DNA of 64,000 nucleotides from Streptomyces davaonensis JCM 4913 (lineage in GTDB: Bacteria; Actinomycetota; Actinomycetes; Streptomycetales; Streptomycetaceae): the NCBI RefSeq assembly GCF_000349325.1, contig NC_020504.1, positions 3,754,053 to 3,818,052 on the forward strand, in the 5' to 3' direction. The position numbers and the translations under genes are program-made. A model generated the notes under the pieces. It did not search any database and had not been told where the DNA came from. It was given only the letters and a program-made list of their open reading frames with translations. Each line of letters opens with the position of its first letter. The first letter of the stretch is position 1. This document shows positions 6,986-10,875 of the stretch, piece after piece.

Positions 6986-8203
6986 TCAGGCAGACCTGCG
7001 GTTGCGGAGCCAGGTGACCAGCCACAGGACGTTGATCCCGCCGAGGACGACCAGCACGGCGAGCGCGTCGGCGTTGCCCGCGAGACCGTGTCCAGGACCC
7101 AGTCCCCGCGCCGCGCGGACCAGCAAGGCGATGTCGGCGGGAAGGGTGACGGCGGCCATGAACGTCAGACAGGCCACGGTGCCGATCACCAGGACGACGC
7201 TGTAGATCCGAACGGCCCGGCGTTCGTGCGCGGGCAGCCGGGTGCTCGGGTCGGGGGCCGCGTCGGCCCCGCCGCGCCGTACCGCCCGGCGGAACACGTA
7301 CCGGGCGTAGGCAAGACCGTCGCCGTACAGATCCCGGCAGCCGGTGAGGTCCTGGAGGACGAAGTACAGGTCGGTGCGGGTGAACAGCAGGCACTGGAAC
7401 GGCAGGGGCAGCAGGGCCAACAGCAGCGCCGCGGCCAGCAGCCGGTGGGCCGTCGTCCCCGGGTCGGTCAGGGCCAGGGTCAGGACGAGGGCCGATGCGA
7501 GGGACAGATTGAAGGCGATGCCCGCCAGATAGGCCGTCAGCCGATGGCGGCGGGGCGCGAGTTCGATGCCGCTGATGTCGGTCTGCATGACGAGGAATTG
7601 GAGCCGGGTGCCCAGCCGCATCTTCCCCGGCACGCCCGCGGCGCGGGCGGTGACCAGGTGCGCCAGCTCATGGGCAAGAAGCAGCGTCCACCCGACCGCC
7701 GCCCCGCCGACCAGCACCAGGCTGCCGTGCGGGCTCCACAGCAGGTCGCGGTAGCCGGGCAGCAGATCGGGGCGGCGGACGAGGGCCACCACGGCAGCCG
7801 TCAGCAGGACTGCGACGAGTACGGGAAGCGCGGGATGCAGGGCTAGGCGGACCTGGTGGGGGCGTAGCCGTGGCAGGGTCGCGCGGGGCGGTTCGGTGTC
7901 CGGGACCGGGTGGTCCCCGATCCGGGCCACGAACCCCAGAGCGGCCAGGTCCGTGACGAAGTCCGTGATCTCGAACTCCTCGCCGGTCTCCGCCCGCAGC
8001 ACGTCCGCCGTGCGGGCCACGCTCAGTCCCTCGCCCAAAAGTTCCACCGCTCGGGCGCCGGCCGCCGGCAAAGCGACGAAGGTACGGGTGGCCATGCGGC
8101 CCACGATCCATTCGTCCCGGTCGCGCCGCATCGCGAGGTCGTGCAGCAGGACATAGGTCGACGCCTCGATGCGGGGGCGGTCCTCGGCCGCGGTGTCCGT
8201 CAC
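6986..8203 (-). CDS. Membrane M50-type zinc metalloprotease with N-terminal PqqD-like domain
   Basis: A 405-aa protein. The GTG start at 8203 overlaps the TGA of the ThiF-like gene by 4 nt (GTGA), so the two are translationally coupled. Residues 10-96 resemble a PqqD-type RiPP recognition element (winged helix with GLSVARTADVLRAETG). Hydrophobic helices surround the zinc motif HELAH at 178-182. A later RTDLYFVLQDL segment sits where M50 peptide proteases carry their third, Asp, ligand. Several further helices follow and the C-terminus is basic. In RiPP clusters this architecture is seen in peptide-processing or export proteins. With the adenylyltransferase, small peptide and M14 genes it suggests maturation of the 25-residue peptide. 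Substrate and reaction are inferred. Confidence 0.75.
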   Translation of the reverse strand: MTDTAAEDRPRIEASTYVLLHDLAMRRDRDEWIVGRMATRTFVALPAAGARAVELLGEGLSVARTADVLRAETGEEFEITDFVTDLAALGFVARIGDHPVPDTEPPRATLPRLRPHQVRLALHPALPVLVAVLLTAAVVALVRRPDLLPGYRDLLWSPHGSLVLVGGAAVGWTLLLAHELAHLVTARAAGVPGKMRLGTRLQFLVMQTDISGIELAPRRHRLTAYLAGIAFNLSLASALVLTLALTDPGTTAHRLLAAALLLALLPLPFQCLLFTRTDLYFVLQDLTGCRDLYGDGLAYARYVFRRAVRRGGADAAPDPSTRLPAHERRAVRIYSVVLVIGTVACLTFMAAVTLPADIALLVRAARGLGPGHGLAGNADALAVLVVLGGINVLWLVTWLRNRRSA

Positions 8204-9384
8204 GAGGGGGGCTCCGAGGCTTGGCAGGCTCGGCAGTCGGGGCGTCGGTCCGAGCGCTGCATGACCGGGTCGCCGGGCACCATGAGGTTGAGGCCGAAGC
8301 GGCAGCCGGGGTCGATCCGTGGAACGCCGGAGACGAGCGAAAGGGCGGCGTGGGCGAGCAGGCTGCCGGACAGGCCCGCGGTGACGGCGTTGACCGGATT
8401 CCACGGCATACGGGGCGAGGCGACGTCCTCGTCCTGGCCGGGCCCGAGCCGCAGATCGCGGCGCTCGATCTCCGTACTGCGCAGGCACTCCCAGCACGCG
8501 CCCCGGCCTGGTGTGAAGACCCCGACGCTCACCAGGGGGCCGCGATATCCGGCCTCGGCCCAGGGCGTGCCGGAGGCGAGGCAGGCCTGGTTGGCCCAGC
8601 GGCGGATGGCGGCGGGGCGGTCGGCGGCCAGGAGGAGCACGTCGTACGGCGCGGTCAGCAGGTCCGCCACATCGGCCGGGCCTCGTACCTCCCGGCGCTC
8701 GCCCGTGACCGTCGTATGCGGGTTCAGAGCGCGCAGTGCCGTCAGCGCCGCGTCGATCTTCGGCGTGCCGAGGTCCGCCTCCCGGTACAGGGTCTGCCGG
8801 TTGAGGTTGGACAGCTCCACCACATCCGGTTCGACACAGTGCAGCCGCCCCACTCCGGAGGCCACCAGGTCCCGGGCGGCGGCTCCGCCGGTGCCGCCGA
8901 CGCCGATCAGCAGGACCCGGGCCCGGCGCAGCCGCAGCTGCGGTTCCCAGGGGTTCTCCCTCGGCTGGAGGTCCATCCAGCGCAGCAGGGTCATGCCCCT
9001 GCTGTACCGCTCGCGTTCGGCCTCGGACAGCTCCGCGGGCGGCGGGGCGGCGGCGTCCTCGACGTATCCGGCCGCGGTGAGGTCCGTCATCGCCTGGCTG
9101 ATGTCGGCATCGGGAAGCCGCAGTTCTGGGTGGCTGCGGGACACTTCGGCGACGATGTCGGCGGCGTCGCGCGTTCCGTCCATGGCCTCGACCAGCGTCC
9201 ACACCCAGCCGTCGGGATCCTTGACCTCGGCGCCGATGCCGTAGACGACGCTGCCGATCCGCAAGTGGCCGTCGACCGTCCGGTACGCCCGGTGTTCCGG
9301 CTTGATCCGGGGCCTCCGCAGCCCGTGCACCGTCACTTTCGCGCCAATCTCTTCATCCCCAACTGCCCCGGAATCAACGGACAT
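8200..9384 (-). CDS. ThiF/MccB-like E1 adenylyltransferase with N-terminal peptide-binding domain
   Basis: A 394-aa E1-superfamily enzyme. The Rossmann nucleotide motif GVGGTG is at 161-166, followed by the family signature around VELSNLNRQ (189-197) and the ADLGTPKIDA lysine loop. Zinc ligands are present as CWEC (Cys297, Cys300) and CRAC (Cys384, Cys387). Such enzymes adenylate a peptide or protein C-terminus: MccB for microcin C, ThiF/MoeB for Gly-Gly sulfur carriers. The first 110 residues form an extra winged-helix-like domain, like the peptide clamp of MccB or a RiPP recognition element. It diverges from the 25-aa peptide gene and is coupled to the M50 gene. The ATG at 9384 is assumed; a TTG two codons upstream is possible. 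No good ribosome site is seen. Confidence 0.82.
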   Translation of the reverse strand: MSVDSGAVGDEEIGAKVTVHGLRRPRIKPEHRAYRTVDGHLRIGSVVYGIGAEVKDPDGWVWTLVEAMDGTRDAADIVAEVSRSHPELRLPDADISQAMTDLTAAGYVEDAAAPPPAELSEAERERYSRGMTLLRWMDLQPRENPWEPQLRLRRARVLLIGVGGTGGAAARDLVASGVGRLHCVEPDVVELSNLNRQTLYREADLGTPKIDAALTALRALNPHTTVTGERREVRGPADVADLLTAPYDVLLLAADRPAAIRRWANQACLASGTPWAEAGYRGPLVSVGVFTPGRGACWECLRSTEIERRDLRLGPGQDEDVASPRMPWNPVNAVTAGLSGSLLAHAALSLVSGVPRIDPGCRFGLNLMVPGDPVMQRSDRRPDCRACQASEPPS

Positions 9385-9465
9385 TGACAACAGTTACCCG
9401 ATCGACGAAGTCTTGCAAGAGCACCACTGATCACGGACGCCACAACCACCACTGGGAGGAACGGC
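9384..9465. promoter_or_regulatory. Divergent promoter region of the peptide cluster
   Basis: Only about 80 bp separate the ThiF-like start from the peptide gene. A TTGACA hexamer at 9384-9389 reads toward the peptide gene but has no convincing -10 at 16-18 bp. GGGAGG-type ribosome bases at 9454-9459 lie 6 nt before the peptide ATG and are the strongest translation signal in the cluster, as expected for a substrate needed in excess over its enzymes. Confidence 0.4.
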
Positions 9466-9543
9466 ATGCCGAACAAGATCGAGATTCGTCCGCTGGACAA
9501 GAAGGAGACCACCGGCGACAGCGGTGGCAACGGCGGTTCCTGA
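9466..9543 (+). CDS. 25-residue putative precursor or carrier peptide with Gly-Gly tail
   Basis: A tiny gene with a strong ribosome site (GGGAGG, 6 nt spacing) that fills the gap between the divergent ThiF-like and M14 genes. It reads MPNKIEIRPLDKKE, then TT, then GDSGGNGGS and stop. The first 14 residues are charged and leader-like; the tail is Gly/Ser/Asn rich and has no Cys. The M14 gene begins 15 nt after its stop with no ribosome site of its own, so the two are probably coupled. The E1 enzyme, PqqD-like domains and two peptidases around it make it the likely substrate. Loss of the final Ser would expose a Gly-Gly end like that of ThiS-type carriers. I know no named homologue; the function is inferred. 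Confidence 0.6.
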   Translation: MPNKIEIRPLDKKETTGDSGGNGGS

Positions 9544-9558
9544 CCCCGGACACCAGTG

Positions 9559-10875
9559 ATGGACCGCTACCCCACGGTCGCGGACGTCACCGAGTCGGCG
9601 CGGCGGCTGGTCTCCCGGTACCCCGGGACCGGCCGCCTGCGCCGGATCGGGACCTCCCGCGTCGGCCGTCCGATCCTGATGCTGTCCGTGGGACACGGTC
9701 CGCGGCACGTCCTGGTGGTCGCCCGGCCACATCCCGACGAACCGGTCGGCGGCGCGACGGCGCTGGCGCTGGCGGAGCGGGTGGCGCGGGGCGACCGGTA
9801 CTCCGCGGCGACGGACCCGGTCTCCCCTGCCACCGATCCTGCCCTCGTCACCTGGGACATCGTGCTGTGCCTCGACCCGGACGGCGCCGCGCTCAGTGAG
9901 GGGATCGAAGCGGCGACGGCCGGTCCCGGGCCCACCCTGGAGAGCTACTACGGCAGCGCCTTCCGCCCCATGGCGGCGGAACAGCCGGAGTGGGCGCCGA
10001 TCATCGAGCAGCAACTCCCCGAGAGCCAGGCGCTGTTCGACGTGATCGACGAACTGCGTCCGTTTCTCCAGTGCTCCCTGCACAGCGTCGACGCGGGCGG
10101 CAGCTGGGTCCAGTTGACCCGCGAGCTGCCCGAACTCGCCCTGCCGTTCCGTAAGTCCGCCGCAGAGCTGGGCATTCCGCTCCAGCACGGCACCTACGAC
10201 GCCCTGTACTGGGACAACCCCAGCCCCGCGATCCACGTCCTGCCCCCGCCGGGCAGCACGGCCCGTCTGGCGGCCGGGTCCGAGAACATCGAACGGTCCA
10301 CCTGGTACGCGCCCTCTGGGTACGGCGGCGTCACGGCGATCATCGAAGTGCCCATGTGGGCAACCGACCTGGCCGAGGACCTGTCCCCGCACCCGGACCC
10401 CGTGGCCGCCCTGAACGACCTGTCCCGCCTGGTACGCGGCGGCGGACGCCAGGTGACCGAGATCCTCGACAAGGCGCGCGCGTTCCTTCCGCCCGCCGAC
10501 GGGAGCCCGCCCCGACGGGTGCTGGAGTGGATGGCCGACGACCTCTACGACCTGGTCGTCGCCTCCTGGGAACCGCTCGCCCGGCAGGCGGCCGACGACC
10601 CACGGTGCCTGACGCTGGCCCAGATCAGCGCGCTCGACGTCGTGGCGCGCCGCCAACCCCTGCGCGCGGCAGGTCTGTTGCTGCGACTGCTGAGAACGTC
10701 GGACGACAGCGCCGCCCCGGGACTCCACCAGGAACTCGGCACACTCTTCACCACGTGGTCCACCGAGTTCGAGCGGGCCCTGCGGCTGCGCTGGGTGCCG
10801 GTGCGCCGCCAGGTGGAGCACCAGGCGCGGACGGTGGTGGCCGCGGCGGACAGTGCGCTGAAGAACCTGCGGTAG
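9559..10875 (+). CDS. M14-family zinc carboxypeptidase-like protein
   Basis: A 438-aa cytosolic protein with no signal peptide. The zinc motif HxxE is visible as RPHPDEPVGG (His58, Glu61), the third ligand as LQCSLHSVDAGG around residue 180, and a catalytic Glu candidate in TAIIEVPMW near 263. These match the M14 carboxypeptidase fold. The C-terminal 150 residues are helical and not part of the standard peptidase. It follows the 25-aa peptide gene by 15 nt without a ribosome site, so coupled translation is likely (start ATG 9559 or GTG 9556). Trimming of that peptide or its product is the natural hypothesis. The gene is convergent with the epimerase gene, 10 nt away. Confidence 0.75.
   Translation: MDRYPTVADVTESARRLVSRYPGTGRLRRIGTSRVGRPILMLSVGHGPRHVLVVARPHPDEPVGGATALALAERVARGDRYSAATDPVSPATDPALVTWDIVLCLDPDGAALSEGIEAATAGPGPTLESYYGSAFRPMAAEQPEWAPIIEQQLPESQALFDVIDELRPFLQCSLHSVDAGGSWVQLTRELPELALPFRKSAAELGIPLQHGTYDALYWDNPSPAIHVLPPPGSTARLAAGSENIERSTWYAPSGYGGVTAIIEVPMWATDLAEDLSPHPDPVAALNDLSRLVRGGGRQVTEILDKARAFLPPADGSPPRRVLEWMADDLYDLVVASWEPLARQAADDPRCLTLAQISALDVVARRQPLRAAGLLLRLLRTSDDSAAPGLHQELGTLFTTWSTEFERALRLRWVPVRRQVEHQARTVVAAADSALKNLR

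Follow-up and report, generated by a model that had tools for sequence, protein, structure and literature searches.

A candidate RiPP cassette with a fused RRE-ThiF adenylyltransferase, an RRE-like site-2 protease and a 25-residue peptide in Streptomyces davaonensis and other actinomycetes

The ThiF-like enzymes MccB, PaaA, GrcB and EnfB are covered in PMC12250964, whose main text mentions neither Streptomyces nor peptidases of families M14 and M50. In the IndF pathway, a bond is made between the C-terminus and a Trp located two residues past the motif DTT (PMC12150305). Fusions of a recognition element (RRE) of ribosomally synthesized and post-translationally modified peptides (RiPPs) with a site-2 protease are known from daptides (PMC10036551), and M50 proteases process pearlins and epipeptides, M14 being unmentioned in that source (PMC10885120). 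The locus described here lies within a 64,000-nucleotide stretch of Streptomyces davaonensis JCM 4913 (contig NC_020504.1, positions 3,754,053–3,818,052; hereafter the window) and contains genes of a ThiF-like adenylyltransferase (E1), an M50 membrane protease, a 25-residue peptide and an M14 carboxypeptidase. The assignment of these genes to a modified-peptide cassette is well supported by genome comparison. The cassette probably represents a minimal RiPP pathway built around a ThiF-like adenylyltransferase (TLAT), with adenylation, ring closure, leader cleavage and trimming; the probability of this reading is estimated at roughly two thirds (0.68).

The peptide gene and its conservation

The peptide is encoded by a 25-codon open reading frame (ORF), and the sequence GGGAGG ends 6 bases 5' of its ATG. 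Scanning of genome contigs with E1 yielded 41 loci, of which 33 were kept; the other eight (L036–L043), 31–46% identical over part of their length, were judged to be distant relatives of ThiF/MoeB and set aside. The short ORF expected beside E1 in a first-pass annotation of the window was present as a homologous family peptide in 32 of the 33 E1-found loci, the sole locus without it in the pattern search being L033 from Actinokineospora. In the window and 22 loci with the 25-codon form, chosen by motif pattern, the DNA of the ORF had a mean column identity of 0.97, compared with 0.51 at positions −60 to −21, 0.77 at −20 to −1 and 0.64 over the 60 bases past the stop codon. Given the presence in 32/33 loci and the identity of 0.97, a chance ORF was rejected, and the 25-codon gene is, on this comparative evidence, genuine.

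The ratio of nonsynonymous to synonymous differences (pN/pS) was only 0.41 overall (0.23 in the leader and 0.79 in the tail), because silent sites are conserved as well; the case for translation rests on the persistence of the motif in diverged loci. At fourfold sites, differences amounted to 23/162 (0.142) in the peptide gene versus 192/624 (0.308) in a segment of E1 (6 sequences of the 23), hinting at codon bias or at some further constraint at the DNA or RNA level.

Residues I7, R8, L10, K12, E14, T15 and T16 were invariant in 14 diverse peptides; peptides found later deviate from ETT, with ETA in L141 and L074 and ETI in group II. The leader of group I can be written approximately as I-x-I-R-x-L-D/E-K-x-E-T-T and is followed by a tail of 6–10 residues rich in Ser, Gly and Asn, and both leader and tail are almost invariant within the main group. 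Among 32 distinct group-I tails, compiled by hand and related to each other, Ser or Cys was found at position +3 after ET(T/A) in 28 and at +3 or +4 in 31. Group II has Lys at +3 in 4/4 peptides, and all three tails of group III have Arg there.

Where the locus contains M14, Gly was the last or next to last residue in 20/22 distinct tails, versus 4/10 where it does not (Fisher 0.005; 12/14 versus 4/10, 0.03, without the GGNGG family), in rows that are non-independent owing to the relatedness of the tails and with M14 counted at the locus, not among genome-wide paralogues. This distribution weakly suggests that M14 trims one residue, exposing Gly.

Upstream of the peptide gene, a block of the form TTGACA...CTTGCAAG/CTGGCAAG is recognisable even where E1 has diverged (L024, L028, L034, L068), and in the window it is possibly a promoter or operator. 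Two or three tandem precursor genes per cassette, differing in their tails (GGNGG-type and SNSQGA-type), were observed in L063–L066.

Locus layout and predicted enzymes

Two compact divergent gene pairs fill positions 6986–10875 (Table 1), with E1 and M50 on the minus strand and the peptide gene and M14 on the plus strand. The genes of E1 and M50 overlap by 4 bases, the M50 frame covering the E1 stop codon, and a 15-base gap separates the peptide gene from M14. The first-pass annotation was accurate as to the positions of all four genes, the tight coupling of the divergent pairs around the 25-codon gene and the motifs GVGGTG and two CxxC pairs in E1, HPDE in the M14 protein and HELAH in the M50 protein.

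Table 1. Coordinates of the predicted features within the window
Feature	Position	Strand	Evidence or remark
Predicted RRE-ThiF adenylyltransferase (E1)	8200–9384	−	Pfam ThiF 9.5e-42; profile match to MccB and PaaA structures
RRE-like N-terminal domain of E1, residues ~22–111	9052–9321	−	PaaA-like_N 0.0021, profile alignment to PaaA
Predicted M50/site-2 protease with fused RRE-like domain	6986–8203	−	HELAH codons 7658–7672
RRE-like domain of the M50 protein, residues 16–97	7913–8158	−	
Precursor peptide gene, 25 aa, MPNKIEIRPLDKKETTGDSGGNGGS	9466–9543	+	Homologues beside E1; profile matches in Streptomyces
Leader motif IEIRPLDKKETT, codons 5–16, presumed RRE-binding strand and ETT	9478–9513	+	Peptide alignment
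Tail GDSGGNGGS, codons 17–25, presumed modified core; Ser19 is the third residue past ETT	9514–9540	+	
Ribosome site GGGAGG of the peptide gene	9454–9459	+	Sequence; block kept in upstream-region alignment
Upstream block TTGACA (9384–9389) ... CTTGCAAG (9412–9419)	9384–9419	+	Alignment of upstream regions
M14 zinc carboxypeptidase	9559–10875	+	Alternative start GTG 9556

No evident ribosome site precedes ATG 9384 of E1, and the database copy P0004 (378 aa, 100% identical) is consistent with GTG 9336, which is probably the true start. The GVGGTG motif corresponds to residues 161–166; its four glycines, the pairs C297/C300 and C384/C387, and residues R196, K209 and D255 were invariant in 22 aligned rows, the ATP/Mg roles of the kept residues following from motifs given in PMC12250964 and not from a structure. 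The solved structures closest to E1 are those of MccB (best, 5.2e-37) and PaaA (PDB 5ff5, 4e-36), and the stretch PWNPVNAV of E1 is aligned with TFAPVNNV of MccB. The extra N-terminal domain, earlier described as peptide-binding-like, is RRE-like in sequence: the profile alignment of E1 to PaaA begins at PaaA residue 6, and the match of the N-terminus to PaaA-like_N in Pfam has a value of 0.0021 and 18 bits versus a cut-off of 27. E1 is accordingly annotated here as a predicted RRE-ThiF fusion.

A plain ThiF or MoeB identity was rejected, as E1 scores far under both NCBIfam cut-offs (105 bits versus 275 for ThiF and 105 versus 266 for MoeB). An E1–E2 defence system was also rejected: in PADLOC, E1 matched only E1 domains (best 2.4e-18), and the M50 and M14 proteins matched none. 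A Pfam search of four flanking proteins detected no E2 or JAB partner.

In the M50 protein, residues H178, E179 and H182 of HELAH (residues 178–182) and D285 were kept in 20/20 rows. The PqqD-like domain attributed to this protein earlier had no Pfam match, but residues 16–97 of the AlphaFold model match the RREs of lasso B1 proteins, no match at E ≤ 0.001 being present among the Foldseek matches listed for the model. According to the model, the protein combines an RRE-like domain with a site-2 (M50) protease.

The M14 protein has the carboxypeptidase A/B fold with the zinc and catalytic residues present, and its residues H58, E61, H175 and E263 were invariant in 20 rows. Relatives of M14 were found in 109 of 199 Streptomyces genomes. 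The genome of the window itself contains two more M14 paralogues facing each other (L161, 5268–8409), and no family peptide was found beside this pair.

Distribution and neighbourhood of the cassette

Among the 199 Streptomyces genomes, the peptide profile matched in 22 and the E1 profile at E ≤ 1e-140 in 19, and all 19 genomes with a close E1 belong to the 22 with a peptide match. Genomes G027, G136 and G169 contain the peptide without E1, in reduced loci. Eight further Streptomyces genomes (loci L099–L106, described below) encode weaker E1s (1e-60 to 1e-117), with other short ORFs instead of the family peptide.

In a class sample of 394 genomes, the peptide profile matched 12. The match in G357 was discarded as a chance one, nothing of the cassette being present there; G379 contains only the M14 of the cassette, and G396 contains the peptide and M14 without E1. 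A broader E1 profile detected 20 places in this sample at E ≤ 1e-100, 16 of them with a recognisable precursor; no peptide was found by pattern at L143, L144, L145 and L147. Of the 11 E1 places between 1e-100 and 1e-40, eight were fetched; among these lower-scoring loci, no peptide was identified in L148, L149 and L151–L155. A possible peptide (..VKIEVRKVEAVKATQFMT) was observed in L150.

A plasmid collection also contains copies of the cassette, in records from Nocardia, Actinacidiphila, Nonomuraea and Streptomyces. The peptide is missing from the gene tables, themselves incomplete, of three of these records, and the stretch is unannotated in the fourth; ordinary annotation may thus hide the pathway.

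Co-occurrence was assessed in 63 non-redundant loci, 33 fetched by E1 and 30 by the peptide, a peptide-biased set in which L093 is a chance match. E1 was present in 57 of them, accompanied by the peptide, as recognised by pattern, in 55 and by a deviating peptide in L074; all four genes were found together in 35 loci. An M14 homologue occurs in 31 and an M50 homologue in 26 of the 33 E1-found loci. Mantel correlations between distances were 0.96 for E1 and M50 (39 loci), 0.96 for M50 and M14 (31 loci) and 0.88 for E1 and M14 (39 loci), in a set leaving out L012, L024, L030–L032 and proteins of ≤250 residues.

In remnant loci L071, L072, L075, L085 and L096, no E1 was found and the peptide and/or M14 persist; L071, L085 and L096 share a common site beside an M1 aminopeptidase gene. 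Among the E1-less peptide loci, the peptides of L072, L075 and L071 are changed at otherwise invariant columns and that of L085 is unchanged. The idea that loss of E1 frees the peptide to decay is only suggestive, because it draws on four loci, the E1-bearing L074 and L141 have deviating peptides too, and a pattern search favours intact peptides.

Related clusters with E1 and M50 form a sister group (L099, L100, L101, L103) with short ORFs of the form (I/V)RLLD-x-IETI-xx-K-xxx-(R/S), in which Lys occupies the position of the group-I Ser/Cys; L102, also with E1 and M50, has a short ORF with RKLEKVETTGWRVIGAGG. Another Streptomyces ThiF type without M50 (L104–L106) has, just upstream, an ORF of ~22 residues that contains MTTR(K/R)xS(I/V)AG and ends in EG. 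Cys-rich short ORFs near two of the sister-group clusters, with LLPQTTAAAGC (L101, near 12189, minus strand) and VLPQTSAAAAC (L103, 9359–9571, minus strand), are possible further precursors or secreted peptides.

Shared neighbours were compared among the 30 largest gene groups, a minority of them annotated. A DUF6879-type gene, confirmed in Pfam for three members, adjoins the cassette in eight loci (including L086, L089, L094, L141 and L142), mostly as one family (f17). Other shared groups look like neighbours of one chromosomal site, including a putative GntR regulator, so named from its letters, in 13 loci. As to the export supposed in the first-pass annotation, no transporter gene recurring across different chromosomal sites was found, though in L063 a gene for a transporter of EamA type lies next to M50.

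Proposed pathway and comparison with described systems

The analysis shows which genes are present and inherited together, how their domains fold, that catalytic residues are intact and how the peptides are conserved, and all of the chemistry set out below is inferred. C-terminal activation and trimming is the best reading because a conserved ORF accompanies E1, RRE-like domains are present, and E1 is akin to MccB and PaaA. The features of TLAT RiPP systems, namely an RRE-ThiF fusion, a conserved short precursor beside the enzyme and retained residues predicted to bind ATP/Mg, were found here.

By analogy with the enzyme family, the leader, IEIRPLDK, would first be bound as a strand by the N-terminal RRE of E1, and the C-terminal carboxylate of the short tail would be adenylated by the ThiF domain with the aid of ATP/Mg. 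In the second and least certain step, a side chain shortly past ETT, normally the Ser or Cys at +3 and Ser19 in the window peptide, would attack the acyl-adenylate and close a ring of ~6–7 residues, giving a macrolactone, a thiolactone in the Cys variants or, via the +3 Lys of the sister group, a lactam. C-terminal adenylation with closure on the +3 side chain is proposed because of the analogy with the IndF pathway, and the natural tail series, with Ser, Cys, Lys and Arg at one place, makes this model directly testable. The membrane RRE-site-2 protease would then bind the same leader and cut it off at the membrane. M14 may trim the C-terminus before activation, exposing Gly, or may clear unmodified peptides or leader fragments.

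Several observations weigh against a strict four-gene unit and a fixed nucleophile. In the stretches fetched for the 57 E1 loci, M50 was present in 44 and M14 in 45, and M14 scores high (E ≤ 3e-164) in 22 genomes, six of which lack E1 at E ≤ 1e-60 (G033, G068, G118, G132, G136, G152), so that the four genes form no obligate unit. Ser or Cys at +3 is absent from L090/91, L142, L146, L156, L157, L158 and L102, and because these do not fit, the +3 nucleophile is stated as a tendency, not as a rule. The first-pass annotation thus holds as regards a peptide-modification cassette with frequent co-occurrence of its genes, but not as regards a strict four-gene set, M50 or M14 being absent from some cassettes and M14 occurring also without the cassette, nor a fixed C-terminal residue: the short ORF had been expected always to end in Gly, Ser or Asn, and group-I peptides end in S, N, A, T, G or E.

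A wider form of the ring-closure model may be put forward only tentatively and is on the whole doubtful. In it, ThiF-made mini-cyclopeptides would be actinomycete-wide, M14 would first remove a sacrificial end residue to expose Gly, the RRE-ThiF enzyme would then close the ring on a +3 nucleophile that differs between groups (Ser/Cys or Lys, perhaps also Arg or Trp), and the RRE-guided intramembrane protease, reading the same leader, would free the ring at the membrane. Exposure of Gly would resemble the maturation of ubiquitin-like precursors. If this were true, the near-fixed core of the main Streptomyces group would represent a conserved signal or cofactor, not a diversifying antibiotic.

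The near-invariant leader and tail of the main group suit a fixed scaffold more than a diversifying product, and a pearlin-like scaffold peptide was weighed, in which the E1-activated C-terminus would receive a small molecule or amino acid, M50 and/or M14 would clip off the modified end residue, a small metabolite would be released, and the 25-mer would be recycled. In pearlins the scaffold is reused, its modified C-terminal residue being cut off by the M50 proteases TglG and TmoG (PMC10885120), and the removal of a single C-terminal residue is a natural task for an M14 carboxypeptidase. Such a scaffold is nevertheless unlikely: no peptide aminoacyl-tRNA ligase (PEARL), oxidase or tailoring gene is prominent among the 30 most shared gene groups (partly annotated), and the tails differ in length and sequence between groups yet keep an internal Ser/Cys, which a mere scaffold would not need.

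Since MccB chemistry uses a C-terminal Asn (PMC12250964), and Asn ends only 5 of the 25 group-I tails listed, the window peptide ending in Ser, it is improbable that E1 joins the C-terminal residue to a nucleotide as in microcin C, with M14 serving in processing or self-immunity, even with MccB as the top solved structure and the PWNPVNAV stretch aligned to it. A ubiquitin-like or sulfur-carrier role, in which M14 would expose Gly and E1 would make a thiocarboxylate or conjugate the peptide to another molecule, would agree with the frequency of Gly in tails with M14 (20/22 versus 4/10, non-independent rows) and with the variable last residue. This role is very improbable, as 25 residues are too short for a beta-grasp carrier, E1 lies far below the ThiF and MoeB cut-offs, no conserved cysteine is present between the two CxxC pairs of E1, and the Pfam search of four flanking proteins yielded no rhodanese, E2 or JAB. 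It is scarcely credible that the short ORF encodes no enzyme substrate and either acts as a regulatory leader of M14 or has been over-interpreted, for in spite of the conserved silent sites (0.142 versus 0.308) and the tail pN/pS of 0.79, the motif survives at the amino-acid level where the DNA has diverged (13 peptides and 34 distinct 10-codon sequences, by a protein-pattern search and hence biased), and the ORF is found also downstream of E1, without M14, in tandem with different tails (L063–L066) and on the E1 strand (L027).

In the open-licence literature, supplements not covered, no paper on the gene set or the peptide was found, the string KKETTG did not occur in the part searched, and the gene set is not mentioned in the available parts of PMC12710340, PMC7470986 and PMC13252029; the ThiF network figures of PMC12150305 may hold this group unnamed.

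Like the present cassette, the IndF/IndA, GrcB and EnfB systems combine an RRE-ThiF fusion with a short precursor and a small C-terminal core. The (V/I)RKA motif in the EnfA leader and the DTT of IndA, two residues before the nucleophile, resemble the leader and tail described here. The product is an indolylamide for IndA, a thiolactone for GrcB and a macrocyclic imide for EnfB. These systems differ in belonging to streptococci and enterococci and in containing an M16 protease, transporters or radical S-adenosylmethionine enzymes, whereas the present cassette has an RRE-site-2 protease and M14 as partners, actinomycete hosts and a core usually with Ser and, except in L102, without Trp. The precursor of pantocin A, PaaP, contains a Glu-Glu-Asn core with a follower peptide; PaaA aligns with E1 over both the RRE and ThiF domains, but the present peptide has no such core and follower. 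For the ThiF part, MccB of microcin C is the best-scoring solved structure, but its substrate MccA is a heptapeptide ending in Asn, in contrast to a 25-mer with a leader.

As to the protease, MpaP of the daptides is likewise an RRE fused to an intramembrane site-2 protease, and the M50 protein matched NCBIfam daptide_HExxH weakly (E 0.00039, 19.6 bits versus a cut-off of 300); the ELExMEAP leader and invariant C-terminal Thr of daptides (PMC10036551) are absent from the present peptides, and none of the four flanking proteins submitted to Pfam is a daptide-type enzyme. TglG/TmoG of pearlins and EpeP of epipeptides are also membrane M50 metalloproteases acting on RiPP precursors (PMC10885120), in systems with other modifying enzymes. 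Of the earlier statement that no described class has this gene set, there remains the combination, which was not found described; RRE-ThiF enzymes and RRE-site-2-protease fusions are each known. By its genes, this combination looks like a new branch of the known ThiF-like RiPP pathways. Since the ThiF-like RiPP enzymes described in the papers cited each form a different bond, this widespread branch in actinomycetes, with its tiny precursor, holds promise as a source of one more.

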